A stretch of DNA of 64,000 bases, from positions 40,110 to 104,109 of the IMG/VR virus record IMGVR_UViG_3300043172_001415; one strand, 5' to 3'. The notes below the pieces were generated by a model. That model did not search any database, was not told where the DNA came from, and saw nothing but the letters and a program-made list of their open reading frames with translations. Below are positions 3,847 to 63,728 of the stretch, one piece after another (the stretch's first letter is position 1; every line of letters begins with the position of its first letter). This stretch comes from a virus. A program made the position numbers and the translations under genes.

Positions 3847-4626
3847 ATGTATTTACAATTTTTAGGAACTGGATCAGCTTTTACATTAAAAAATTATCAA
3901 ACATCAGCTATTTTAAATCATAAAGGTAAAAATTTACTTATTGATTGTGGTGGTGATACAAGGTTCAGTGCTAATGAATGTGGTTATTCTTTTTCTGATA
4001 TTGATGCTGTCTACATTTCTCATTTACATGGTGATCATATGGGTGGTTTAGAATGGCTTGGTTTTACAACTTATTTTACTCCTGGTTGTAAAAGACCAAA
4101 ATTGTATATTGAGCAATCATTAATCTCAGATTTATGGAGTGCTTTAAGAGTTGGTATGGAAAGTTTACAAGGAAAAATTGCTACTCTTAAAACTTATTTT
4201 GATGTTATTCCTATTGAAGTAAATATTCCTTTTGTATGGAATGAGATATCATTTGATACAATACAGACTCAGCATATTGTCAGTAAATATAAGTTTGTAC
4301 CTAGTTTCGGGCTTATGTGGGACACTTTATGCGGTGATCGGGTATACTTTACTACTGATTGTCAATATGCCCCTGAGACAGCTCAAATGGCTTATTATGA
4401 AGAAGCAACTTTTATCTTTCATGATTGTGAAACTTTATATAAATCTGGTGTTCATGCTCATTATGATCAGCTAAAGCAATTGCCTGACCATATAAAAATT
4501 AAGATGTATTTAACTCATTATCAAGATAATATTGTTCTTGATTACGAAAACAGAAGTTTAGAAGCTGTTGAAGATGGTTTCATGGGTTTTGTTAGAAAAG
4601 GTACAAAAATACCATTTGATTTATAA
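3847..4626 (+). CDS. MBL-fold hydrolase, RNase Z-like
   Basis: Metallo-beta-lactamase fold protein of 259 residues, close to the size of short bacterial RNase Z/BN-type enzymes. It opens with FLGTGSAF, typical of the RNase Z branch. The zinc motif HLHGDH lies at residues 59-64, with later metal-site candidates TTDCQY, FHDCE and YLTHY. RNase Z trims tRNA 3' trailers. It lies inside a tRNA cluster whose genes lack CCA, so a tRNA-maturation role is a reasonable inference. Other MBL nucleases or phosphodiesterases are possible. ATG 3847 follows AAGGATAACATC. Confidence 0.7.
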   Translation: MYLQFLGTGSAFTLKNYQTSAILNHKGKNLLIDCGGDTRFSANECGYSFSDIDAVYISHLHGDHMGGLEWLGFTTYFTPGCKRPKLYIEQSLISDLWSALRVGMESLQGKIATLKTYFDVIPIEVNIPFVWNEISFDTIQTQHIVSKYKFVPSFGLMWDTLCGDRVYFTTDCQYAPETAQMAYYEEATFIFHDCETLYKSGVHAHYDQLKQLPDHIKIKMYLTHYQDNIVLDYENRSLEAVEDGFMGFVRKGTKIPFDL

Positions 4627-5725: not shown

Positions 5726-5779
5726 CAAAATATCATTTAAATGATAAAACCAATTTTTCTTCAAAAGACGGAGGTTATA

Positions 5780-6712
5780 ATGTTACAAAGTAGCGAAGAA
5801 AAAATAGTAAAAGATGGTGTCGGTGTTATAGTTGGTCGGTTTCAACCGATGACTGACGGACACAGAGATATCATTCAGTCTGTTATTAGCAGACACGAAA
5901 AAACAATCATTGTAGTTGGCGTTTCTGAAGTCAAATGTACACCAGATAATACTCTGGATTTTGAAATCAGAAGACGTGTAATACAAAAAGCCTTTCCAGG
6001 CGTTCAAATTGTTTATCAACATGATCACCCTTCAGATAAGGCATGGTCAAAGATTCTTGATAAATTAATAAGATCGAATGTACCACCATTATCTTCAAAG
6101 ACAATTCTCTATGGAAGTAGAGACAACTTTTCAGCTCGTTATTCGGGTAGTTTTAAAGTTGTTGAATTGCTCCAAGAACGTTATACATCAGCAACTGAAG
6201 TTCGTAAAAAAGCTTCATATAAAATTTCTGATCATGAACAATTTATAGATGGTGCTCTCTGGTGTGCTCAAAATCAATATCCTACTGCTTATTGTGCTGT
6301 TGATACTATTATCATTGATAAGAAATACAACAGAATGTTATTAGGCAGAAAAGAAAACCAAACTAAATTCAGATTTATTGGTGGATTTGTAGAACCTGAC
6401 ACTGATGCATACGAGGGTGATTTTTTAGAAATGAATGCTCGTAGAGAAGTAAAGGAAGAAACAGGTCTGGAAGTCGGTAATCTTAATTATGTTGGTAGTT
6501 ATCTTATTAAAGATTGGCGATATTCAAGAGAACGGCATAAAATATTCTCTGCATTATTTACTGCAGATTATGTATTTGGTGCTGCGAAACCTGAAGATGA
6601 CATTCACGAACTCGCTTGGTTTGATCTTGATAAAATAAAAGAAAAAGATGTTGTTGATGAGCATAAACCTTTATTAAGTGCATTTTTAAAAACACTTGAA
6701 GGAGGTGAATAA
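5780..6712 (+). CDS. nadM: Bifunctional NMN adenylyltransferase / Nudix hydrolase
   Basis: 310 residues. The N-terminal half is a nucleotidyltransferase: GRFQPMTDGH at residues 19-28 carries the HxGH-type motif (here TDGH), and YTSATEVRK fits the second nucleotide-binding motif. The C-terminal half is a Nudix hydrolase with GGFVEP and REVKEETG. The family makes NAD from nicotinamide mononucleotide and ATP; the Nudix part typically cleaves ADP-ribose or related nucleotides. ATG 5780 is chosen because GACGGAGG lies just upstream. Its TAA overlaps the ATG of nadV, so both are translated from one mRNA. Confidence 0.92.
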   Translation: MLQSSEEKIVKDGVGVIVGRFQPMTDGHRDIIQSVISRHEKTIIVVGVSEVKCTPDNTLDFEIRRRVIQKAFPGVQIVYQHDHPSDKAWSKILDKLIRSNVPPLSSKTILYGSRDNFSARYSGSFKVVELLQERYTSATEVRKKASYKISDHEQFIDGALWCAQNQYPTAYCAVDTIIIDKKYNRMLLGRKENQTKFRFIGGFVEPDTDAYEGDFLEMNARREVKEETGLEVGNLNYVGSYLIKDWRYSRERHKIFSALFTADYVFGAAKPEDDIHELAWFDLDKIKEKDVVDEHKPLLSAFLKTLEGGE

Positions 6713-8139
6713 TGGTTGCAATGAGAAAGTTTTACGATCCAGATTTCAATCCAATCTTGGCTTCAGACTCGTACAAAATGGTTCACCACGGAATGAAACT
6801 TCCTACTGAATTCAATTATTCATATAATGAATGTAGAAAAGGATCATCATTCCCTTTGGTTAAATTTTATGGCTTGCAAATTTTCATCAAACGATTCCTT
6901 GTGGGGAAAGTTGTTTTGCAAGAACATATTGATGAAGCAAAAGAGATATTGGAGAATCACTTTGAAACCGGTCTTGAACATGTAGATATTGAAAGATGGG
7001 ATTATATCTTGAAAAAACATGGTGGGGTTCTACCAATCAGAATCAAAGCAGTCCCTGAAGGAACTGTAATGCCAATCGGAAACATTTGTTTTGATGTTAT
7101 TAATACAGATCCTGAATGTGAATGGCTTGTTGGACACGTTGAATCTTTATTGACTCACGTTTGGTCAACAACAACTACCGCAACCCTAAGTTATATGGTC
7201 AAAGAAATGTGCAGAGGATCTCTTGAAGATACTTGTGATGATGATAAAATCGCTGCTATACTTCAGTTTATGCTACATGATTTTGGCTATAGAGGCGGTT
7301 CTAATCACTTTACTTCAAGTTGGAATGGTTCAGGACACCTAGTTAACTTTTGGGGTACAGACAATCTCAGTGCCATTAAAACGGCTAGAGATTATTATAA
7401 TACTAAAATGGTCAACGCATACTCAGTTCCTGCAACTGAACACAGCGTAATGACTTCTGAAGGTAGAGAAGGTGAGTCAAGACGTACAGGCAAAATTATT
7501 GATAAATTCGATAAAGGAATTTTATCTATTGTTTGTGATAGCTATGATTGGAAAAATTTTGTTGATAATATCATAGGTAAAATCTACAAACAAAAGATTC
7601 TCGAAAGAGATGGTAAAGTTGTTATACGTCCAGACTCGGATGATTATATGGTAGTCATTCCTTATATACTAAAGTCTTTAGAAAAAAACTTCGGTACTAC
7701 TTTAAACAAAAAGAAGTACAAAGTATTAAATTCTAAAGTTGGCATGATATGGGGTGATGGCTTGGATATAGATGACATTGCTAATATCCTCGAACTTGTG
7801 AAATCTCTTGGATTTTCTATTGAAAATATATGCTTTGGAATGGGCGGTGGTCTGATACAAAAGACTAATCGTGATACCATGAGAAATGCATTTAAGAGTT
7901 CTGCACAATGTAGAGATGGAATATGGCATGATATATTCAAAGATCCTTTGGATTCTACCAAAAAATCAAAGAAAGGTATTCAATATTTAATCAAAGATGA
8001 AGAAGGGAATTACAGTACTACAAATGTGACAACCCTGGAAGACCAGTTACAAACTGTATTTCTTAACGGTGAACTTATAAAAGAGTACACATTCAATGAG
8101 GTAATAGAGAATTCGCCAGAATATATAATGGCTGCTTAG
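6712..8139 (+). CDS. nadV: Nicotinamide phosphoribosyltransferase
   Basis: 475 residues, the usual length of bacterial and phage NadV/NAMPT. Recognisable segments are ASDSYKMVHHGM near the N-terminus, LMLHDFGYRGGS, YSVPATEHSVMTS and the phosphate-binding region VVIRPDSDDY. The enzyme joins nicotinamide to PRPP to give nicotinamide mononucleotide, the substrate of the preceding protein, so the pair rebuilds NAD from nicotinamide. AAGGAGGTGA lies within the upstream gene end. A strong terminator follows. Confidence 0.95.
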   Translation: MVAMRKFYDPDFNPILASDSYKMVHHGMKLPTEFNYSYNECRKGSSFPLVKFYGLQIFIKRFLVGKVVLQEHIDEAKEILENHFETGLEHVDIERWDYILKKHGGVLPIRIKAVPEGTVMPIGNICFDVINTDPECEWLVGHVESLLTHVWSTTTTATLSYMVKEMCRGSLEDTCDDDKIAAILQFMLHDFGYRGGSNHFTSSWNGSGHLVNFWGTDNLSAIKTARDYYNTKMVNAYSVPATEHSVMTSEGREGESRRTGKIIDKFDKGILSIVCDSYDWKNFVDNIIGKIYKQKILERDGKVVIRPDSDDYMVVIPYILKSLEKNFGTTLNKKKYKVLNSKVGMIWGDGLDIDDIANILELVKSLGFSIENICFGMGGGLIQKTNRDTMRNAFKSSAQCRDGIWHDIFKDPLDSTKKSKKGIQYLIKDEEGNYSTTNVTTLEDQLQTVFLNGELIKEYTFNEVIENSPEYIMAA

Positions 8140-39971: not shown

Positions 39972-40193
39972 AAATTAGTCCTTAGTTAAAGTATTATCAC
40001 CTATTCATTAAACGTAATATTAATATAATATTATAACAAATAAAAGGGTTTATATATGAATAATATATCAATTATCGATACTTGTAAAGATTTTATAACA
40101 AAAAAACTTTGAATGTTTAATTAACAAACACCCTTGAATAATATTGATTTATTTAATATACTATTAATATTATTAATTTAACTGAGAAACAAA

Positions 40194-51439: not shown

Positions 51440-52099
51440 ATGAAAGAAAGTATATCATCAAAAGTTACCAGAATTATTAGTGGTAGCACACACAAATTAA
51501 TAAACATTGTAGAAAGTTCTATGCCTGAAGTTATGATGGAGCAATCCATAAAAGAAATTCAGGATGCAATGAGTGAGATCAAATCTGAACTTGGTAAAAT
51601 TGAAGCAGCTCTTTATCTAGGATCAAAGAGAAAAATAGAAGCTGAAAATAAAATCAACGACTATAATGAACTTATCAAAATTGCTGTTGATGAAGGTAAA
51701 GATGAACATGCAGAATCTGTAATTTCTCAACAAATTGATATTGAAACTCAATTACCTATCATCGAATCGTCTTTAAAAGAAAACAATAACAAGAAAATTG
51801 AACTTGAAAATTTCATCCTTGCTCTTGAAAGTAAAATTAGAGAAATGAAAGATGAGTTAACACTGTTAAAAGAAACTAAAGTATTAGTTGATTCACAAAC
51901 AGATAAAGAACATAATATTGAAGATAATATTTCAAAAGCTGAAGCAGCATTTGAAAGAGTTGTTACAAATATTGTTGGCAAAGATCTTACAAAATCAAGT
52001 ACTGATATGAAAGCAGATCGTGAAATCGAGGAACTTAAAGAGATAAGAAGAAAAAATAAAATTGAAGTTCGTTTACAAAAATTTAAACAGAATCTGTAA
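51440..52099 (+). CDS. PspA/IM30-family protein
   Basis: 219 residues, almost entirely coiled coil, the normal length and composition for PspA/IM30. The N-terminal amphipathic helix (ISSKVTRIISGSTHKLINIVE) is followed by long Glu/Lys helices. PspA proteins bind and remodel stressed inner membrane. Stop overlaps the next ATG; the following genes encode YqiJ- and flotillin-like proteins, a known partnership. Confidence 0.85.
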   Translation: MKESISSKVTRIISGSTHKLINIVESSMPEVMMEQSIKEIQDAMSEIKSELGKIEAALYLGSKRKIEAENKINDYNELIKIAVDEGKDEHAESVISQQIDIETQLPIIESSLKENNNKKIELENFILALESKIREMKDELTLLKETKVLVDSQTDKEHNIEDNISKAEAAFERVVTNIVGKDLTKSSTDMKADREIEELKEIRRKNKIEVRLQKFKQNL

Positions 52100-52764
52100 T
52101 GATTGATTTAATTTTAGCAAACGAGAATCTTCCATTTACTGTAGCAATTGGAATAATGATTACTATATCATTTATGGAAGGTTTTGGTTTATTAATTGGT
52201 GTCGGATTTTCTAATCTTTTGGATTCAATATTACCAGATTTTGATATTGATACTGATGTGCCAGATAATTTTGATACACCGGATTTCTTTTCAAGAATAT
52301 TAACTTGGTTCTGTATTGGTAAAGTACCAATACTAATTTTGTTAATACTCGCATTAACAACTTTTGGTTTGTCTGGATATTTAATACAGATAATATCAAA
52401 ATCCATATTACTTCAGTTTTTTCCTTCATTCATTGCAAGTATCCTGGCTATAGTAATTTCTGTACCGATAATAAAAACATGTGCAAACATGTTAAATAAA
52501 ATTATTCCTGATGATGAATCTCAATCAATATCAGAAGATTCGTTTATCGGTGAAGTTGCTATTATAACTTTAGGTACAGCAAAGTTGAATTATCCGGCTT
52601 CGGCAAAATTTCAAGATCATCATGGCACTACTCATCATATAATGGTTGAGCCTGATGAAGAGAATGTTGAGTTTAAGCAAGGAACTGAAGTAATTTTAAC
52701 AGAAAAAAACAATCATATATTCAAAGCAATAAAAAACAATAATCAATTATTAAAAAAACAATAG
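52099..52764 (+). CDS. YqiJ-like membrane protein (OB-fold tail)
   Basis: 221 residues. About three to four membrane segments in the first 140 residues with an acidic loop (DFDIDTDVPDNFDTPDF), followed by a soluble domain with SFIGEVAIITLGTAKLNYPA that fits the OB-like C-domain of YqiJ/NfeD-type proteins. Such proteins pair with flotillins. Directly follows PspA. Confidence 0.78.
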   Translation: MIDLILANENLPFTVAIGIMITISFMEGFGLLIGVGFSNLLDSILPDFDIDTDVPDNFDTPDFFSRILTWFCIGKVPILILLILALTTFGLSGYLIQIISKSILLQFFPSFIASILAIVISVPIIKTCANMLNKIIPDDESQSISEDSFIGEVAIITLGTAKLNYPASAKFQDHHGTTHHIMVEPDEENVEFKQGTEVILTEKNNHIFKAIKNNNQLLKKQ

Positions 52765-52773
52765 GGAGATATC

Positions 52774-54519
52774 ATGGATATCAGTTTAATATTATTCATA
52801 GCAATACCAGTGGTCGCATTACTTACAATGGGAATCGTATTTTCAAAATTATATACCAGATCAACTAAAGAAAGATCTTTTGTAAGAACTGGTTTAGGTG
52901 GTCAAAAAGTTATCATGAATGGTGGTGCGTTAGTACTTCCTGTTCTTCATGACATCATTATGGTAAACATGAACACTATCAGATTAGTCGTTAATAGAAA
53001 ATGTAAGGACTCATTAATTACAAGTGATAGAATGAGAGTAGACGTTACTGCAGAATTTTATGTTCGTGTAAAACCAACAAATGAATCGATTGCAGATGCT
53101 GCACAAACTCTTGGTAGTAAAACATTGGTCATCAATGAATTGAAAGATTTGGTTGAGGGTAAATTTGTTGATGCACTTCGTTCTGTAGCTGCTGAAATGT
53201 CAATGGAACATTTACATGAAAAAAGAACGGATTTTGTTCAAAAAGTTCAACGAGCAGTAACAGAAGATTTATTGAAGAATGGTATGGAACTTGAATCTGT
53301 TTCACTTACTTCATTGGATCAAACTAATAAAGAATTCTTTAATCCGAACAATGCATTTGATGCTGAAGGCTTATTGAAACTTACTCAAGAAATTGAATCT
53401 CGTAACAAATCAAGAAATGACATTGAACAGTCAACTAAAATTGCAATTCAAAAGAAAAATCTTGAAGCTGAAAAAGAATCTCTGTCTATCAAGAAAGATA
53501 ATGAATATGCACGTCTTGAACAGCAAAGAGAAATCTCTATCAAAACTCAAGAGGAATCTACCAGTACTGCTAAACAACGAGCTGAGAAAAGACAAGAAGC
53601 TGAAGAAGCAGAGATCAAAGCTCAACAAAGTATTGATTTAGCTCAACTCTCTACAAACCAAGCAATTCAAGAAGAAACTATTCAGAATCAAAAAGCTATC
53701 AAAGAGCAAAGCATTAAATCTGAACAGGCTATTCAATCTGCAGAGATTACAAAGAATCAAGCTATTCAATCTGCAGAGATTAATAAGAACAAAACCCTTG
53801 AGATCGCTTCTCAAGATAAAGCTATTGCTATCAGTGAGAAGTCAAAAGAAGAGTCTGAAGCTAAAGCAGAAGCTGAAGATGCAAGAGCTTTAGCTGTTAA
53901 AGCGGAAGAGAACGTTACTACTGTTAAAGAAACTGAAGTAGCTAATCGTAACAAAGAAATCGAAATCATTAAAGCAAAAGAAGAAGCTGAAAAAGATGCG
54001 GTATCTATTACTATTGCTGCTGATGCTGAAAAGAAAGCTTCTAAAGACAAAGCGGACTCAATTGAAATCATTGCTGAGGCTAATAAGAACGCTGATATGA
54101 TGAAAGCTGAAACAAAAGAAAAAGAATACTCTGTTGATGCTGCCGGTAAGAAAGAAATGGTTGATGCCGAAAATTCTCTGTCTCCTGAGATAATCGAAAT
54201 GAAAATCAAAATGAAAACTATTGAGAATCTTCCAAAAATCATTGAGCAAAGTGTTAAACCAATAGAAGCAATCGAATCAATTAAAATCGTTCAATATGAA
54301 GGTTTGAACGGTATAGGCTCTTCTACAGGAACTTCAGTTGAAGGTGCTCCACAGTCTACTAATATGGCTGATAGCATGGCAGAAGCTGCTCTTAAGTATA
54401 AAGCACAAGCGCCAATGATCAATAATCTATTGAACGAGCTTGGTATGAATGCTGATTCTCTTAATGGTTTAACAGAATGTATTACTCCAAAAAAAGATGT
54501 ACCAGAATCTGATGCATAA
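52774..54519 (+). CDS. Flotillin-like protein (YqiK family)
   Basis: 581 residues. An N-terminal membrane segment (about 3-22) is followed by an SPFH/band-7 domain (SFVRTGLGGQKVIMNGGALVLP, DVTAEFYVRVKP) and a very long Ala/Glu/Lys coiled coil (about 210-480) with repeats such as AIQSAEITKNQ / AIQSAEINKNK. Flotillins form membrane scaffolds that respond to envelope stress. RBS GGGAGATATC. A terminator follows, closing the three-gene operon. Confidence 0.9.
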   Translation: MDISLILFIAIPVVALLTMGIVFSKLYTRSTKERSFVRTGLGGQKVIMNGGALVLPVLHDIIMVNMNTIRLVVNRKCKDSLITSDRMRVDVTAEFYVRVKPTNESIADAAQTLGSKTLVINELKDLVEGKFVDALRSVAAEMSMEHLHEKRTDFVQKVQRAVTEDLLKNGMELESVSLTSLDQTNKEFFNPNNAFDAEGLLKLTQEIESRNKSRNDIEQSTKIAIQKKNLEAEKESLSIKKDNEYARLEQQREISIKTQEESTSTAKQRAEKRQEAEEAEIKAQQSIDLAQLSTNQAIQEETIQNQKAIKEQSIKSEQAIQSAEITKNQAIQSAEINKNKTLEIASQDKAIAISEKSKEESEAKAEAEDARALAVKAEENVTTVKETEVANRNKEIEIIKAKEEAEKDAVSITIAADAEKKASKDKADSIEIIAEANKNADMMKAETKEKEYSVDAAGKKEMVDAENSLSPEIIEMKIKMKTIENLPKIIEQSVKPIEAIESIKIVQYEGLNGIGSSTGTSVEGAPQSTNMADSMAEAALKYKAQAPMINNLLNELGMNADSLNGLTECITPKKDVPESDA

Positions 54520-55290: not shown

Positions 55291-55378
55291 ATTGACAAAT
55301 CTGCTTACATTTAATAAGTTATTAATATGGTTATGTTAATAACTTATATCATCTATGGGATGATTGAAAAGGATAATT

Positions 55379-55858
55379 ATGAATGATATAGATAGAGCAA
55401 TAATCATATCCGTTACAGGTCATGCAGGACAAATGGATAAAAGTGGAAGACCTTATATATTTCATCCAATGCATGTAATGCATAAATTAAAAGAAAAAAA
55501 TTTTGATGAAAGATTTTTAATCGTTGCTGTCTTACATGATGTGGTTGAAGATACTAAGGGTAAAAAGAATGAAATTACTATAGAAGATTTGTCATATGAC
55601 TTTAGTTATGAAATTGTAGCTGCAGTCAGTGCGTTAACTCATGATAAAGAAAAACATTCTTATGAAGAATATGTTGAAATAGTTGCACAGAATGATATTG
55701 CCAGGGAAGTTAAGATAGAAGATCTTCGTCACAATTTGGATGTGTCAAGACGTGTATTTGGTGATTGGTCAATAGATTCTCAAGAATCGTTTTCTAGACG
55801 ATTAATCAAATATATGAAAGCATATGATAGATTAGTTGGAGGACAACTTAATAAATGA
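55379..55858 (+). CDS. HD-domain protein, (p)ppGpp hydrolase-like
   Basis: 159 residues from ATG 55379 (AAGGATAATT). GHAGQMDKSGRPYIFHPMHV, AVLHDVVEDTK (HD motif) and IEDLRHNLD match the hydrolase domain of RelA/SpoT and the stand-alone small alarmone hydrolases. No synthetase domain is present. It may clear (p)ppGpp, or a related nucleotide, in the infected cell. Confidence 0.82.
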   Translation: MNDIDRAIIISVTGHAGQMDKSGRPYIFHPMHVMHKLKEKNFDERFLIVAVLHDVVEDTKGKKNEITIEDLSYDFSYEIVAAVSALTHDKEKHSYEEYVEIVAQNDIAREVKIEDLRHNLDVSRRVFGDWSIDSQESFSRRLIKYMKAYDRLVGGQLNK

Positions 55859-57205: not shown

Positions 57206-57470
57206 CTCTTCTGATTCTGATAAAGAAAAACATTATCAAATTATCGTTGCTTTAGCTGAAGATCCAAATTCATTATTAGCAATAATTGAAGTTGTTCATT
57301 TAGAACGGTTGATGAAAAGAGATATGATTAGTGAGATGAATTTACATTTATCAAAAGCTGATTGTATCCTCGAAAATCCGAAACTCGATACTAAGAAAAA
57401 TATGTTGACGGAGATCTCCGGCTTCTACTTAAAATATGCAGATAAAATAAAACATTGCTTCAAATCATAA
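57174..57470 (+). CDS. Hypothetical helical protein (98 aa)
   Basis: Starts inside the previous gene at ATG 57174. Entirely helical. A terminator follows. Confidence 0.52.
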   Translation: MNLEKITEIVNSSDSDKEKHYQIIVALAEDPNSLLAIIEVVHLERLMKRDMISEMNLHLSKADCILENPKLDTKKNMLTEISGFYLKYADKIKHCFKS

Positions 57471-57472
57471 AA

Positions 57473-57506
57473 AAAAACAGATCCTTAGCCAAAAGATCTG
57501 TTTTTT
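57473..57506 (+). terminator. Rho-independent terminator
   Basis: AAAAAACAGATC/GATCTGTTTTTT. The 225 bases between here and gene 57732 contain an AACTAAAGT copy, a promoter and no gene that I can support. Confidence 0.88.
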
Positions 57507-57664
57507 CAAAAGGCAATCATAATGAACAAAAATGATTGTACAACTAAAGTAACAATATCCATTTAGTCTGTCAACAAGTTCTTATTGTTGAGTTTAAAAA
57601 CACATATTCATTACAGTTATTATTAATAAAATTTAATAATAATTAATATTTTTTATTAATTGTA

Positions 57665-57694
57665 TTGACAAGTAATATTAATTGTTATTATATT
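57665..57694 (+). promoter_or_regulatory. Promoter of gene 57732
   Basis: TTGACA (57665-57670), 17-18 bases, TTATAT/TATATT (57688-57694), RBS AAGGAG. Confidence 0.6.
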
Positions 57695-57731
57695 CTATAC
57701 ATGACAATAACGGAATTAATAAGGAGTACAT

Positions 57732-58691
57732 ATGTCAGATAATAACGGAATTAAATTCATGGGTTCAACAAAAAAAGATTTGTGGGATGCATACAAAGAG
57801 CAAAAAGCAAAATTGGAAGCTATTCAAGGTGGACCAATCACTACAACAGCTAAAGCAACAGAAGCTAAAATCAAAGGTTCTATTGCAAGTGCAAACTCAA
57901 TGGACATTAGTGCTATTGATGGTGTTCTTAGTACTTTAGTTGGTCAAATTACTGATCTTAAAAGTCAATATGAAGATATCATTACTGCTATCGAAGCTAA
58001 AAAAGCTGAGCTTAAAGATGTTCATGGTATTGAAGTAAGTGCAAATGATCTTGCTGCTTTAGCTGCAGTTAAAGAAAAACTGGTTACTGATGCTGACGAA
58101 AAAGCAAAAGACATCAGAGATCGTGCTGACACTTATTACAATGAAATTATTGAGAATTCATCAGACAAGAAAAATGATCTTGAAGTTTCTCGTAGACGTG
58201 AACTTGAAGTTTATTCATATGAGACAGACAGAAAACGTTCAATGTCAAATGATGCTGTTGATGATGCACTTCGTACAAAACTCAAATCTCTTGATACTCG
58301 TGAAACGGAACTCAATGGTCGTGAAGATGATCTTGAGCAACGTGAAGCAGAAGTTGAAGTTCTCAATAATAAGATCACAGAGCTTGAAAACTCGACTGCA
58401 GAAAAAGTTGCTAAATCATATGTTGACGGTGAAGATAAAGCAAAAAGATCTGCACAGTATGCTTCTAGTATGGCAAAAATGGGTGCTGAATCTAAAGCTG
58501 AGATCCAGGAAGGAAGAATTAATTCTTTAGAGGAAAAAATAACAGATCTTATTGCTCAACTTGACAAATCAAATTCAATCATCGAAAATCAAGTAAATCA
58601 AATTTCTGATATGGCTAAGAGTGCTCTTAATGCACAAGCTGACGCAGCAACTATCAAAAAAGTTGCGGAAGTAGCTGCAGGTAGCAAATAA
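57732..58691 (+). CDS. Coiled-coil protein (319 aa)
   Basis: Long helical protein; heptad-rich stretches at about 70-170 and 190-300 (LKSLDTRETELNGREDDLEQ, ITELENSTAEKV). Codon use looks optimised relative to neighbours, and it has its own promoter and terminator, suggesting high expression. No known family; possibly structural or scaffold. Confidence 0.65.
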   Translation: MSDNNGIKFMGSTKKDLWDAYKEQKAKLEAIQGGPITTTAKATEAKIKGSIASANSMDISAIDGVLSTLVGQITDLKSQYEDIITAIEAKKAELKDVHGIEVSANDLAALAAVKEKLVTDADEKAKDIRDRADTYYNEIIENSSDKKNDLEVSRRRELEVYSYETDRKRSMSNDAVDDALRTKLKSLDTRETELNGREDDLEQREAEVEVLNNKITELENSTAEKVAKSYVDGEDKAKRSAQYASSMAKMGAESKAEIQEGRINSLEEKITDLIAQLDKSNSIIENQVNQISDMAKSALNAQADAATIKKVAEVAAGSK

Positions 58692-58709
58692 CAAATAATA
58701 ATTGTTGAC

Positions 58710-58739
58710 CAAACAAAATAATTAATTTATTTTGTTTGA
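58710..58739. other. Perfect A/T hairpin
   Basis: CAAACAAAATAA/TTATTTTGTTTG with a short TTAAT-type loop, between the coiled-coil gene and its terminator. Confidence 0.5.
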
Positions 58740-58765
58740 GCATCGTTTGATGCATTTCCAAGAAT

Positions 58766-58803
58766 AAGAGAGAGTTGGGTACACTATGTCCAACTCTCTT
58801 TTT
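58766..58803. terminator. Terminator between convergent genes
   Basis: AGAGAGTTGG-N10-CCAACTCTCT followed by TTTTT; serves gene 57732 and, less clearly, the CoA operon on the other strand. Confidence 0.82.
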
Positions 58804-58805
58804 AT

Positions 58806-60002
58806 TTAAAGTAAACCATTTACTTCTTGGTAATAGGCATCATAATTTTCAGTATTAATAATTGAACTAATTACTTCAGTTGTGACTCTTTCCAATTCTG
58901 GTTCAAGATCATCTAAAGTATTTTCGAACACAAAAGTTTTACCTTGATTATGTTTTGTTATATCAGAATAAATCTTATTGTATTTATCTTCAAAACTCAA
59001 TTGATTATCAAGACGTTCTTTAATTTGATCTTCATCCAAGCCACGATTTAGTAAACGCTTTAACTGAAGTTCTTTGGTTGTATTAATAAGTATTACAAAA
59101 TTATTACAGATCAAATTCCAATCTGCTTCAGCCAATAATGCACTGTTGAAAAGAATGATTCCTTTCTTGCCAAACAGTTCTTTCTTGATTCTTGTGAGCA
59201 TTGGTTTAAGCATTATAGAATTAAATGTTTCCATATCATTTTTATCAGCAAAAATAATTTTACCTATTTCTGCACGGTCAATATAATCGTCATTGCATTG
59301 ATGAACCAATCCAAAAGTACTTATCAGCATTTTTCTTACATTTACATAAGCAGGTTGTTTTAAATCTTTCAATACTTCGTGAGCAATCTTATCAAGATCC
59401 AGATGATGAACTTCATAACCTTTTGATTCGATCTTTTCAATTAATTTTTTAGTAACAAATGATTTGCCGGAACCCATCTCACCAGTTACACCAATTATAT
59501 ATTGCTTTAGCAGTTCTTTTTCAAGATTATATTTAACATTGAGAGGAACCATCTTATGAATGAAGCCCCCACTTTTTAAAAGAGATTTTACAGATCCAGA
59601 AGATACATGTTCATATTTTTGATTTGACATTAACAAAACGGTTTCTATATCAAGATCCTGGGATTCACCACACAAAGCCATTCTTTTTTCATAATCAAAA
59701 TCGGCAGCATTTCGAACTCCTCTTACGATTACATTTGCTTTTTGTTCATATGCAAAATCAATTAATAAACCTTCATATGTTTTAACTGTATTTGTATATG
59801 GATATTGATTTACATGTCCAATAGTAGCTAAAGCATCAATTGTCATTTCAATTCTTTTTTCTGTTGGAAACAAATATGTTTTCTCAGTATTATTACCAAT
59901 GGCAATTATAACTTCATCAAACATAGTTAATGCTCTTTTGATTATATCAATATGTCCAAATGTTATTGGATCTGCAGAGAATGCGAATACTGCTTTGCTC
60001 AT
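58806..60002 (-). CDS. coaDE: Fused phosphopantetheine adenylyltransferase / dephospho-CoA kinase
   Basis: 398 residues. N-terminal CoaD: SADPITFGHIDIIKRA (TxGH motif), RGVRNAADFDYEKRM and VSSGSVKSLL. C-terminal CoaE: IIGVTGEMGSGKSFVTKK (P-loop near residue 170), then LDLDKIAHEVL. Together they convert 4'-phosphopantetheine plus ATP to dephospho-CoA and then CoA. In bacteria these are normally separate proteins; a CoaD-CoaE fusion is known in animals (COASY). It is the last gene of the CoA operon; its ATG overlaps the upstream stop. Confidence 0.92.
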   Translation of the reverse strand: MSKAVFAFSADPITFGHIDIIKRALTMFDEVIIAIGNNTEKTYLFPTEKRIEMTIDALATIGHVNQYPYTNTVKTYEGLLIDFAYEQKANVIVRGVRNAADFDYEKRMALCGESQDLDIETVLLMSNQKYEHVSSGSVKSLLKSGGFIHKMVPLNVKYNLEKELLKQYIIGVTGEMGSGKSFVTKKLIEKIESKGYEVHHLDLDKIAHEVLKDLKQPAYVNVRKMLISTFGLVHQCNDDYIDRAEIGKIIFADKNDMETFNSIMLKPMLTRIKKELFGKKGIILFNSALLAEADWNLICNNFVILINTTKELQLKRLLNRGLDEDQIKERLDNQLSFEDKYNKIYSDITKHNQGKTFVFENTLDDLEPELERVTTEVISSIINTENYDAYYQEVNGLL

Positions 60003-60562
60003 TATATTTCCTCTTTTAAAGTTACCAGTTTGTTTATTATTTCAACGATCCTTCTAGGTTTTCGTAATTTACCAACTCCGGTTTCACCACAAGCTAACAA
60101 TCCTTCATCAGGTTCAATAATATGCCAAACATTTTTTTCAGAAAATTTACCCCCAAGTTTTTTTAAATTGCCTTTGGTTGTTTTATGGTCATACATTAGA
60201 GTATTCATTGCAGGAGCAAGTATTTTAAACTTTCCTCGAAAAGCTAAAGCGGTTGCAGTCAATACATTATCACAAATTCCATTTGCAAGTTTTGCAATTG
60301 TATTGGCAGTAGCAGGAGCAATTAATAACATTTCTCCCCACTCAGCCAGATCAATATGTTCAACCTGACCAGTTACTTCAGTTGAAAATTTTGAAACAAC
60401 TTCTCTACCGGAAATAATTGATAAACTCATTTCAGTTATAAAGTTTTTAGCATCTTCAGTCATTATTACTTTAACATCATGGCCGGTAGCATTTAATCCA
60501 GATATGATATCACATGCTTTATATGCACTGATAGATCCGGTGATTCCTAATAATATATTCAT
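60002..60562 (-). CDS. coaC: Phosphopantothenoylcysteine decarboxylase
   Basis: 186 residues. LGITGSISAYKACDIISGL, VEHIDLAEWGEMLLIAPATANT (active His and PASANT-like motif) and LAPAMNTLMYDH are the signatures of the flavin-dependent decarboxylase. It yields 4'-phosphopantetheine for the next enzyme. In most bacteria it is fused to CoaB; here they are separate, adjacent genes. Confidence 0.93.
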   Translation of the reverse strand: MNILLGITGSISAYKACDIISGLNATGHDVKVIMTEDAKNFITEMSLSIISGREVVSKFSTEVTGQVEHIDLAEWGEMLLIAPATANTIAKLANGICDNVLTATALAFRGKFKILAPAMNTLMYDHKTTKGNLKKLGGKFSEKNVWHIIEPDEGLLACGETGVGKLRKPRRIVEIINKLVTLKEEI

Positions 60563-61221
60563 TAGCTAATCTTCTCCAATAATTTTTTAGATAGATTACA
60601 ACGTTTAACATTTAAATGTCCATTATCATCACAAATATATGCTCTTTCTCTTGCCCATTCTAAACAGTTTGCAACAATAATATCAGCATTACTTGCTTTG
60701 CGAGATTCCTGGGCTACCGATATTAACTCTTTATCTTTCATATCAACTTGTAACTTGAACTTAACTAAAGTACCTTCAAAACCCCATTCAGAACGAATTT
60801 TATCTATTATCTTTTCTGTAGGAATCATTTTGATATAAAGTTCATCATGATCAGAACTTACTTTAGTTGCTGAAGAAACACATTCTAATTCCAATTCACC
60901 AGACGACATATCAGGTTTAAATATCCCATCAGGTTTATAATCTGATACTGCAGCACTATGAATAATCACATCATATTTTTTCATAGTAATAAATTTTTTC
61001 ATTGACTCAAACAAATCATCATATGTTTTGTAATGAGGAAGGACCATTACATTGTTCATTAATTTGATATCTGTATTCGATGTTAATAAATCAACATAAT
61101 GACCATTTGCACCAAAGTATTCTGCCATATCAGCCCCTGTACGGCCTTTAAAGACGTTGGTGATACATCTTACTTGGTCAATCATTGTTTTGGTGCTACC
61201 GGCTGTTATAAGTACTTTCAT
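60562..61221 (-). CDS. coaB: Phosphopantothenate-cysteine ligase
   Basis: 219 residues from ATG 61221 (TAAGGATTAAT on the minus strand). ITAGSTKTMIDQVRCITNVF, GADMAEYFGANGHYVDLLTS, HSAAVSDY and KFKLQVD match CoaB. It joins 4'-phosphopantothenate to cysteine. First gene of a three-gene set covering the last four steps to CoA, linked by one-base overlaps. Confidence 0.92.
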   Translation of the reverse strand: MKVLITAGSTKTMIDQVRCITNVFKGRTGADMAEYFGANGHYVDLLTSNTDIKLMNNVMVLPHYKTYDDLFESMKKFITMKKYDVIIHSAAVSDYKPDGIFKPDMSSGELELECVSSATKVSSDHDELYIKMIPTEKIIDKIRSEWGFEGTLVKFKLQVDMKDKELISVAQESRKASNADIIVANCLEWARERAYICDDNGHLNVKRCNLSKKLLEKIS

Positions 61222-61272
61222 ATTAATCCTTAATAAATTTTCATTGTTATAATATAACATATCATTTATGTA

Positions 61273-61301
61273 TTGACATTAAAAATGATATAAATTACTT
61301 T
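61273..61301 (+). promoter_or_regulatory. Promoter of structured RNA, ACTTTAGTT at -10
   Basis: TTGACA (61273-61278), 17 bases, TACTTT (61296-61301). Transcription would begin about 61308, at the 5' edge of the predicted RNA fold. Confidence 0.62.
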
Positions 61302-61314
61302 AGTTTTTATTGAT

Positions 61315-61475
61315 AGATGAGTTGCACTGTGAAGTGAGTCTGTATTATAATGTGAAACAGCGTAATTACCTCTGATATAATCCACATTATCGGAATGGTA
61401 GCTTCGGTTATAATAGGATTAAAATGTACGTGGATAAGGCAAGTAGGATAATAACCTATCGACTCATTTATTTTT
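61315..61475 (+). ncRNA. Structured leader or small RNA upstream of gene 61488
   Basis: Outer strands AGATGAGT and ACTCATTT pair (61315-61322 with 61462-61469). Inside are CACT-GTGA-AGTG, TAATGTG/CACATTA and TAGG-N7-CCTA; TATTATAA can instead pair with TTATAATA, giving an alternative fold. A T-run follows the outer helix just before the RBS AAAGGG. It could be a riboswitch/attenuator or a separate small RNA. Confidence 0.5.
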
Positions 61476-61487
61476 TAAAGGGAAAAA

Positions 61488-61964
61488 ATGAAAATAATAC
61501 CAAAGTATCCAAATCACTGTATAGATTTAAACACAAAAATTGTTTATCGAGTTAATACAGTTGTTCCATATGACAAATTTGGAAGATTATCAATAAGATA
61601 TAAAAGTAAAGTTTATAGTCATTCTCTAAGAGAATTGATTACTATGGTTGGACCAATAAAAAAATTAAAATTATCAAAAAAAGAAAAAATGGAACGTGTT
61701 TATGAAATGCATATGGAAGGAAAATCTACTGCTGATATTATTGAAGATCTTGGAATTGCACAAGCAACGATTTCAAGATATTTAATCACTCAATTTTTTA
61801 TAAACCATCCAGAACATGATAATACTAAAATCACTATGCGTGAAATTCAACGCATTACTTTAAGAAAAAAAGTTAAAGAATTGCAATATAAAAAAATGTC
61901 TTTGCCTGATATTGCAAAAAAATTAAATATTCATTATCGAACTGCCTGGAATCATAGTAGATGA
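61488..61964 (+). CDS. HTH DNA-binding protein (158 aa)
   Basis: Two helix-turn-helix segments: MHMEGKSTADIIEDLGIAQATISRYL (residues ~70-95) and KKMSLPDIAKKLNIHYRTAW (C-terminal). The N-terminal part (YPNHCIDLNTKIVYRVNT) resembles start regions of phage HNH/NUMOD proteins. Probably a regulator or remnant of a homing protein. Overlaps the next gene (ATGA). Confidence 0.7.
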   Translation: MKIIPKYPNHCIDLNTKIVYRVNTVVPYDKFGRLSIRYKSKVYSHSLRELITMVGPIKKLKLSKKEKMERVYEMHMEGKSTADIIEDLGIAQATISRYLITQFFINHPEHDNTKITMREIQRITLRKKVKELQYKKMSLPDIAKKLNIHYRTAWNHSR

Positions 61965-62332
61965 AAAATAATGTACATGCACAAATAGAATATCTCAAAG
62001 ACGATGGAACGAAAATTCATAGTGATATTTGTCCTCCCGAATGTGATCTTTTAAAATTAACAAAAAAGAGGAGAGAATTTTTACATGCATGTCTTGATGA
62101 ATGGTTAGATGAATCAAAAGGTACAGGTGCGTTTTGGATTCATCAAGAAAATTATCTTAAAGAAAGATTTCAATATGGATACATGGATGAATTAATAAAA
62201 AGATCCTTTGATTATGCTAATAATAAATATTCTGATATTGAAGCAGAGCCTGATCGTGAAATATGTACATATCTAGAACAAATAAGATATTTGAAAAAAT
62301 TTATAGGATTAATATTTAATGCCCAAAGTTAA
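61961..62332 (+). CDS. Hypothetical protein (123 aa)
   Basis: Helical, with a Trp-rich middle (LDEWLDESKGTGAFWIHQENY). Overlaps both neighbours; probably one operon with the two HTH genes. Confidence 0.58.
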   Translation: MKNNVHAQIEYLKDDGTKIHSDICPPECDLLKLTKKRREFLHACLDEWLDESKGTGAFWIHQENYLKERFQYGYMDELIKRSFDYANNKYSDIEAEPDREICTYLEQIRYLKKFIGLIFNAQS

Positions 62333-62744
62333 AAAAGTCAAAAGAATTCGTTCCGATAACCCGTTTCAAAAAATAGTTAGGCTTTATATGAAAAGACATG
62401 ACTTAAGTACAAAAGAAATGTCTTTTAAATTAAATACCTATCCTTCTTCAGTGTCGAGGATAATCCATGGAGATCATTTGCCAACGATGGGTAGTTTTTG
62501 TAATATATTGTATAAACTAAAGTTGAGTCCTGCTGAATTGTTTTATTTTATGGAAGACATGTCTGAGTATTATCAACAACAAAATGGATTATCTGACAAG
62601 CCATTCAGGTGTAGAAATCAATCAAGATGGATTGATGCGACATATCCAAAGCCTATAAATCATTCGATTGATATTAAGCCAAATAAAATTTCCGAAGGCA
62701 GTTTTAAAAAAGATGCCTGGAAAAATTTACTACCGTCACCATAA
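62319..62744 (+). CDS. HTH regulator (Cro/CI-type, 141 aa)
   Basis: FQKIVRLYMKRHDLSTKEMSFKLNTYPSSVSRIIHGDHLPTMGSF is a Cro/CI HTH at residues ~12-60, resembling the regulator at 33132. The C-terminal 60 residues are basic and unrelated to known domains. Confidence 0.75.
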   Translation: MPKVKKVKRIRSDNPFQKIVRLYMKRHDLSTKEMSFKLNTYPSSVSRIIHGDHLPTMGSFCNILYKLKLSPAELFYFMEDMSEYYQQQNGLSDKPFRCRNQSRWIDATYPKPINHSIDIKPNKISEGSFKKDAWKNLLPSP

Positions 62745-62747
62745 TCA

Positions 62748-62776
62748 TTGACTAGTTAATAAAAAATATGTACTTT
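62748..62776 (+). promoter_or_regulatory. Promoter with ACTTTAGTT at -10
   Basis: TTGACT (62748-62753), 17 bases, TACTTT (62771-62776), followed by AACCGGAGTATAT and ATG 62804. Confidence 0.65.
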
Positions 62777-62803
62777 AGTTATTAAACAATAACCGGAGTA
62801 TAT

Positions 62804-63073
62804 ATGCCTCCTAGTAGCAGAGATAAAATAATAAATACAGGTGAAATTAAAACAACCTTTGATCATCAAATCGGTGGCGATCATTATACTAAACAAGCTA
62901 TTCAACCTATCCAATATATTTATGCAAACAAACTGGACTATTTCCAAGGAAATGTTGTTAAGTATGTTACCAGATATAAGCTTAAAAATGGAATGGAAGA
63001 TCTTAAGAAGGCTCTTCATTATCTTGAAATGATAATTCAACAAGAAAATGGTAAGTGGAATGAATTCAAATAA
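62804..63073 (+). CDS. DUF3310 protein (phage nucleotide-kinase-like family)
   Basis: 89 residues. IGGDHYTKQAIQPIQYI, NKLDYFQGNVVKYVTRYKLK and NGMEDLKKALHYLEMII match DUF3310, a small family very common in phages. Function unproven. Confidence 0.88.
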   Translation: MPPSSRDKIINTGEIKTTFDHQIGGDHYTKQAIQPIQYIYANKLDYFQGNVVKYVTRYKLKNGMEDLKKALHYLEMIIQQENGKWNEFK

Positions 63074-63263
63074 TTCAGATTGGATTGATGTAAAAGATAG
63101 ATTGCCGGAAGATGGTGAACCCGTTTTAATTAAATATCAACGAAATACTGTAAAGATGTGTACTTTTGGTTGGTACAACAAAGAACACAATCGCTGGGGT
63201 AGAAACGGGAAGTTTTGGATAGATGACAGTCTTATTGTAGCCTGGATGAATATACCAGAATAA
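63060..63263 (+). CDS. DUF551-like protein
   Basis: 67 residues from ATG 63060, overlapping the previous gene. SDWIDVKDRLPEDGEPVLIK and IVAWMNIPE fit the DUF551 pattern; second copy in this window (see 42498). Confidence 0.75.
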   Translation: MNSNNSDWIDVKDRLPEDGEPVLIKYQRNTVKMCTFGWYNKEHNRWGRNGKFWIDDSLIVAWMNIPE

Positions 63264-63326
63264 TATTATTGACAAGCCATTAAATAATATTTAAATGATG
63301 TGTAAGTACTTCAGTCTTAGATAATT

Positions 63327-63728
63327 ATGAAAACCTTTACTAAAGAATATATAACCGAATGTTATACTAAAACAGCAGAAATTGATAAAGCTGCAATAAG
63401 AGTTGCATCATTAAAAAGATATGGTTCGGAAGAGTTGTCATCTTATGATTCAGCCACTTCAGTTGATTATGAAAACGATTATTTAGAAGTAGTATTCTAT
63501 GAAGATACAACTTGTAGTTGTTGTAGAGGTGAAGAGGTTTATACTTCAGTTCAATTTGAAGAATTGAATATGTCGAATGAAGATATTCTTGTTGTTGTAA
63601 ACATGAAAAAAGAACTTGCTGCTAAAGCAGATAGAGAACATAAAGACGTTGAAGCTAAAGCTAAAAAAGAAGAACTAGAAAAAGAAGAAAAAGATGAATT
63701 TGAACGTTTAAAAAAGAAGTTCACATGA
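63327..63728 (+). CDS. Hypothetical coiled-coil protein (133 aa)
   Basis: The first ~90 residues are alpha/beta with DTTCSCCRGEE; the end is a highly charged helix (EAKAKKEELEKEEKDEFERL). Overlaps the next gene by ATGA. Confidence 0.58.
   Translation: MKTFTKEYITECYTKTAEIDKAAIRVASLKRYGSEELSSYDSATSVDYENDYLEVVFYEDTTCSCCRGEEVYTSVQFEELNMSNEDILVVVNMKKELAAKADREHKDVEAKAKKEELEKEEKDEFERLKKKFT

Follow-up and report, generated by a model that had tools for sequence, protein, structure and literature searches.

On the minus strand of a phage genome, three adjoining genes in the order coaB, coaC and coaDE are predicted to carry coenzyme A (CoA) synthesis from 4'-phosphopantothenate to its end product. They lie in a window of 64,000 nucleotides, the whole stretch that was analysed, which corresponds to positions 40,110 to 104,109 of the IMG/VR virus record IMGVR_UViG_3300043172_001415 (104,109 bases). 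Purine-rich stretches precede the starts, and at both junctions stop and start codons overlap (Table 1). Judged from its reading frames, the locus is an intact-looking operon whose three genes serve the final four steps in making CoA. The longest coaB frame begins at the first ATG (60562-61260, 232 aa); the likelier start is the ATG at 61221, which is preceded by AAGGA and where the earlier note on this DNA, made from the sequence alone, had also ended the locus. Promoter-like sites at the operon were no more frequent than in shuffled sequence, no terminator-like site was found there, and no Rfam family matched within 57400-64000. An HD_4 domain protein (PF13328) is encoded 3 kb from the operon (55364-55858); by eye, a protein encoded near coaC in a 735-kb phage (L006:1842-2360) resembles it.

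Table 1. Features of the CoA operon and of the NAD-salvage genes, in window coordinates.
Feature	Coordinates	Strand	Size and basis
coaB, phosphopantothenate-cysteine ligase	60562..61221	minus	219 aa, counted from the ATG that follows AAGGA; PF04127
coaB/coaC junction	60560..60564	minus	TAATG, stop and start overlap by 1 base
coaC, phosphopantothenoylcysteine decarboxylase	60002..60562	minus	186 aa; PF02441
coaC/coaDE junction	60000..60004	minus	TAATG, 1-base overlap
coaDE fusion (CoaD phosphopantetheine adenylyltransferase + CoaE dephospho-CoA kinase)	58806..60002	minus	398 aa
CoaD domain of coaDE	59511..60002	minus	~residues 1-164; TIGR01510, alignment to 1vlh
CoaE domain of coaDE	58806..59507	minus	~residues 166-398; PF01121, alignment, AlphaFold model, Foldseek
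NMN adenylyltransferase-like + Nudix domains	5741..6712	plus	PF01467 (CTP_transf_like, 23.5 bits) and PF00293
NAMPT, nicotinamide phosphoribosyltransferase	6712..8139	plus	PF04095 140.1 bits, PF18127 83.3 bits

The CoaD half of the fusion matches the full TIGR01510 domain over residues 4-163 (149 bits, cut-off 103.3) and, aligned to 1vlh, keeps TFGH, RGVRN and SSGS, which agree with the nucleotidyltransferase motifs (T/S)xGH, RG and SS. Its matches among solved structures at E<=0.001 are phosphopantetheine adenylyltransferases (bacterial PPATs), with 1vlh the best, and no eukaryotic CoA synthase is among them, the comparison having covered family models and solved structures. The CoaE half scores 82.7 bits against TIGR00152 (cut-off 65.55) and 75.8 bits against PF01121 (cut-off 27, approximately residues 168-348), and retains the Walker A motif GVTGEMGSGKS, D204, R320 and Q334. 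In a 29-sequence CoaE alignment (A10), T11, G12, G17, K18 and D42 are invariant and G69, R158 and Q172 nearly so, and the window CoaE keeps all of them. This half is the most diverged of the parts; over its length, it is 33% identical to its counterparts in the two further fusions described below. Its solved-structure matches are dephospho-CoA kinases (DPCKs), and an AlphaFold model was built from A10 (pLDDT 88.6). In a Foldseek comparison of this model with the PDB, each of ranks 1-19 is a dephospho-CoA kinase, TT1252 from T. thermophilus or the DPCK half of the mouse CoA synthase; on this model the half is predicted to have the DPCK fold. Another alignment, A9, was left out of the folding because single CoaE proteins landed on the CoaD half, and a model of the whole fusion from the single sequence was unusable (pLDDT 33).

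The two upstream genes are more loosely tied to whole-protein models. CoaC scores 121.4 bits against PF02441 (cut-off 22.7) and lies under the stricter NCBIfam whole-protein cut-offs (TIGR02113, 166.9 vs 261.4; TIGR00521, 185 vs 219.7); in alignments it keeps HIDL, PAMN and ACGE (H69, P117-N120, A157-G159), presumably the catalytic histidine, the PxMN motif and the ACG clamp, and it matches the solved CoaBC structure 6tgv. CoaB scores 98.6 bits against PF04127 (cut-off 22) and 127.5 against NF005231 (cut-off 265), and its best solved-structure match is 2gk4, which we take to be streptococcal in source. Both appear to be diverged members of their families, falling below NCBIfam whole-protein cut-offs. 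Family membership gives a firm basis for the reaction assigned to each enzyme, and the enzymes are presumably active. The earlier note had described CoaB and CoaC as split, CoaD and CoaE as fused, and the set as spanning phosphopantothenate to CoA in a phage; frames and Pfam and NCBIfam families bear this out, and the loss of catalytic residues that would speak against it was not seen in alignments, the CoaD, CoaE and CoaC motifs all being kept.

A phage-type DUF3310 gene adjoins the operon, a T4-like UvsX is encoded on the same virus record, and the window holds 16 tRNAs, one tmRNA, an NAD-dependent DNA ligase and RtcB; this contig, a fragment, gave no terminase match. Both members of the gene pair for phage NAD reconstitution, NAMPT and an NMN adenylyltransferase-like (NMNAT-like) gene, are present (5741-8139), approximately 51 kb from the operon. 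We also observed an Apyc1-like anti-Pycsar gene (3847-4626; PF23023, 104.9 bits), genes for a TROVE (Ro60) protein and for two proteins with TerD domains (22124-23806 and 25152-27047), and a membrane-related cluster in which PspA-like, YqiJ-like and flotillin genes follow one another (51440-54519).

When virus contigs were searched with alignments of CoaB, CoaC and CoaE, 10, 13 and 30 loci emerged. Among 25 records, the window's own included, 6 have a CoaE above its cut-off and 6 a CoaD, while DFP (CoaB) exceeds it in 23, Flavoprotein (CoaC) does so in 22, and CoaB and CoaC occur together in 20; these are not background rates, since most records were picked for holding CoaB or CoaC. Wherever both occur in phage records, CoaB and CoaC are separate genes. 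In the contigs of the CoaE scan, CoaD exceeded its cut-off in 12 of 29 and DFP in one of 29. Complete sets occur elsewhere: LR756501 (735 kb) holds all four enzymes, and G001 (204 kb) holds all four steps, its CoaD being slightly below cut-off. A third, probable case is divided between two records, G002 and G034, one of which has CoaB and CoaC while its counterpart has CoaE and CoaD. The spacing between the NAPRT and NMNAT-like genes is identical in the two (L009 and L125; 80,210 bases), which suggests that a single phage was recorded twice, in overlapping records from separate samples; this phage would then probably have all four enzymes. Many matches in the 'phages' collection were short and unannotated or looked bacterial, and only LR756501 and LR756500 were counted from it as phage evidence. 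In the 735-kb phage, CoaC (L006:5956-7065) carries an M23-peptidase-like domain at its C-terminus (37.1 bits against Pfam M23). G005, G006, G008, G009, G016 and G019 have CoaC frames of 353-406 aa that look like the same M23-like fusion, mostly as judged by eye or by frame length.

What these phages do not appear to carry is the entry to the pathway. Neither pantothenate kinase III (PF03309) nor type I (TIGR00554) was found in any of 30 viral records, and the 735-kb record likewise lacks both types; the other records include fragments, where absence is unproven. The description of the window's pathway as nearly complete is apt, the missing part, as searched with the type I and III models, being the first step. 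That step is feedback-inhibited in bacteria and eukaryotes (PMC6650551).

The fusion recurs in other phages. Two further virus contigs encode it in the same order, G023 (194,595 bases; 409 aa, 39% identity over 375 residues) and G052 (303,564 bases; 377 aa), with catalytic motifs kept among the fused homologues at 38-41% identity. The fusion cannot be put down to a sequencing slip: in the window the frame runs from CoaD into CoaE with neither a stop nor a frameshift between them, and the same fused frame exists in these two contigs at that level of identity. A phylogeny of the fusion, which the earlier note had proposed, places the CoaE halves of the three same-order fusions in one clade (support 100/99), and in the CoaD tree the corresponding halves group with the CoaD head of L055 (93/86). 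Fusions in the reverse order, CoaE first, occur in G039 (345 kb) and G048 (55 kb); they form a separate clade in both trees and appear to be independent of the window type.

In eight contigs, coaD and coaE are overlapping neighbours, four with coaD first (LR756501, L115, L132 and L134) and four with coaE first (L122, L128, L140 and G001), and the pair is fused or overlapping in 13 contigs altogether. In the CoaE tree, L132 is closely related to LR756501. Overlapping neighbours of this kind are the probable source of the fusion, which would have arisen within phages, and the trees point to CoaD and CoaE having been joined at least twice, in opposite orders. The overlapping pair of L115 is sister to the window fusion in the CoaE tree (98/83); as the CoaD tree does not back this relationship, we do not claim descent from it. 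No fusion was seen at 12 bacterial loci, all of which match only up to residue 166, nor did any of 7 CoaE-matching frames longer than 330 aa carry the CoaD motif searched for, among approximately 150 listed rows from 391 matching Bacteroidota genomes (395 searched); these searches covered 12 loci and part of one phylum, and fusions may exist in other bacteria.

Other CoaD proteins have extensions of a different kind. We do not claim as CoaE fusions L046, a CoaD with a P-loop protein (hhalign probability 4.4), or L055, a CoaD with an unrecognised half (hhalign probability 2.2). The latter (L055:934-1992, on a 536-kb contig) has a CoaD head and a long C-terminal half without recognisable P-loop, and may represent a fusion whose kinase half has decayed. 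In L043:814-2001 and L044:811-1971, CoaD bears a C-terminal extension of approximately 220 aa that looks HD-like by eye; a Pfam search did not bear this out for L043.

CoA genes in phages keep company with genes of NAD salvage. Of 46 contigs that carry CoA genes, 25 have a nicotinamide/nicotinate phosphoribosyltransferase (PF04095; one match, in G028, is weak at 25.5 bits). The enzyme is encoded in all five fusion contigs, namely the window's own record (G000), G023, G039, G048 and G052, where it was identified by a local HMM approximately 19 kb away. For the linkage test, G034 was dropped owing to its overlap with G002, leaving 24 of the 25 contigs, and the CoA positions omit the majority of CoaD-like matches that scored under the family cut-off. 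Ten of these 24 have the phosphoribosyltransferase no more than 10 kb from a CoA gene, against 3.7 expected under uniform placement (p ~0.001), as do 7 of the 18 contigs of at least 100 kb, against 1.8 expected; at a 5-kb threshold the signal was weaker (5/24 vs 2.1, p 0.047). The control sets, an RtcB query with 3 loci and a 16-base pattern with 4 small contigs, were too small for an estimate of background co-occurrence. We regard the linkage as supportive and not specific, since phage metabolic genes may cluster anyway.

On balance we think it probable that the operon makes CoA from 4'-phosphopantothenate, serving as a module that resupplies the cofactor without passing through the feedback-controlled first step. 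CoaB would join cysteine to host 4'-phosphopantothenate and CoaC would then decarboxylate the product, after which CoaD would adenylylate 4'-phosphopantetheine and the fused CoaE would phosphorylate dephospho-CoA to CoA. The overlapping stops and starts may couple translation of the three genes, and dephospho-CoA may be channelled between the fused domains. By entering below pantothenate kinase, the phage would sidestep a step inhibited by CoA itself, and could keep up its CoA supply in the late stages of a large-phage infection, once the host has stopped renewing its enzymes. The operon would then be one arm of a broader cofactor-resupply strategy, beside the phage's NAMPT and NMNAT-like genes.

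The same enzymes could instead answer an attack, the operon rebuilding CoA that an unknown bacterial defence destroys, by analogy with the published reconstitution of NAD by phages (PMC12774641, available to us in part). If CoA were cleaved to 4'-phosphopantetheine and 3',5'-ADP, CoaD and CoaE alone would reverse the damage, and this is the pair that is fused or overlapping in 13 contigs and, as the CoaE-scan counts indicate, commonly present without CoaB. The co-occurrence and linkage of NAMPT/NAPRT genes with CoA genes and the Apyc1-like gene of the window phage are also consistent with such a role. However, phages that hold just CoaB and CoaC would be ill-suited to a simple regeneration cycle, and the literature searched, in the parts accessible, yielded no CoA-depleting defence. 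We consider this role unlikely for the operon at hand, and give still less weight to its general form, in which large phages carry a CoA reconstitution pathway, with fused CoaDE as its streamlined core, that undoes an undiscovered CoA-destroying defence. The earlier proposal that CoA is limited during infection or targeted by defence gains circumstantial support from the co-occurrence and linkage of CoA genes with NAD-salvage genes.

Large phages hold many host-derived genes, and the operon might be a passenger in a roomy genome, of little or no use or with a non-catalytic role; the CoaD head of L055, with its C-terminal half devoid of a P-loop, would fit such decay. Conservation of catalytic motifs between such diverged fused homologues, the recurrence of the same steps in unlike phages and the origin of the fusion in two orders all argue against this reading, which we find improbable. 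The enzymes might also protect phage RNA, with CoaD adding 4'-phosphopantetheine to transcripts or dephospho-CoA initiating them. Such capping has no need of CoaE: it would be superfluous, since CoA, which it makes from dephospho-CoA, is unable to start a transcript. The conversion of pppA-RNA to CoA-RNA by E. coli PPAT in vitro, reported in the accessible portion of PMC10761072, speaks for this idea, and we nevertheless give it very little credence. As the contig is a fragment lacking a terminase match, misassembly or host contamination could be suspected. We reject both as barely credible in view of the phage-type neighbours, DUF3310 beside the operon and the T4-like UvsX on the same contig, and of the homologous fusions in two other virus contigs, of which G052 does have a terminase match. 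Cofactor resupply past the pantothenate kinase step is the reading we retain.

Individual CoA genes have been reported in viruses before. In snow viromes, coaE and coaD are among the abundant viral auxiliary genes, their purpose being stated as not known (PMC11097641); phage X1 has coaE and NAD genes (PMC13384950), and PhiMa05 a PPAT (CoaD) gene (PMC8093824). As far as the available parts of these three papers go, what they describe is individual phage-borne CoA genes, accompanied in two of the papers by NAD genes, and neither a fusion nor a four-step operon. We found no report of a phage CoaD-CoaE fusion or four-enzyme phage set in the literature searched, which was seen in part and mostly excluded subscription journals and preprints. 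A system close in content is LR756501, which has the four enzymes, overlapping coaD-coaE neighbours and a coaC adjoining coaB; in contrast to the window phage, its CoaD and CoaE are unfused, its CoaC bears the M23-like C-terminal domain and its genes lie at two separate loci. The split of CoaB and CoaC, which had been taken as unusual, turned out not to be so, given the separate genes of phage records and the streptococcal split models of NCBIfam (TIGR02113, TIGR02114 and NF005231). The window genes share this separation and differ in being phage-borne, in forming an operon with fused CoaDE and in scoring below the model cut-offs.

Every cell makes CoA, and to our knowledge CoA has not been recognised as a phage battleground. 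That very large phages have repeatedly captured the last CoA steps, repeatedly joined the final two enzymes and kept company with NAD-salvage genes suggests that CoA is a cofactor phages must secure, and turns bacterial attack on CoA during infection into a testable question. The fusion had been called animal-like, which fits its domain order: eukaryotic CoA synthase (COASY) also places PPAT first and DPCK second, in one chain and for the same two reactions. The resemblance does not extend to the CoaD half, which is of the bacterial family and has no long N-terminal extension. Bacterial PPATs are what the CoaD half matches among solved structures, and the CoaE half belongs to the P-loop CoaE family, so the phage fusion is convergent with the animal one and presumably of independent origin. 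An archaeal protein described in the accessible text of PMC6650551 likewise carries out both steps in a single chain, a PPAT with a GTP-dependent DPCK (arCOG04076), the latter being unrelated to CoaE, whereas the DPCK half of the phage protein is a PF01121 kinase with a P-loop. The phage fusions, in both orders, thus join the published eukaryotic and archaeal PPAT-DPCK fusions (PMC6650551) of the same two steps.
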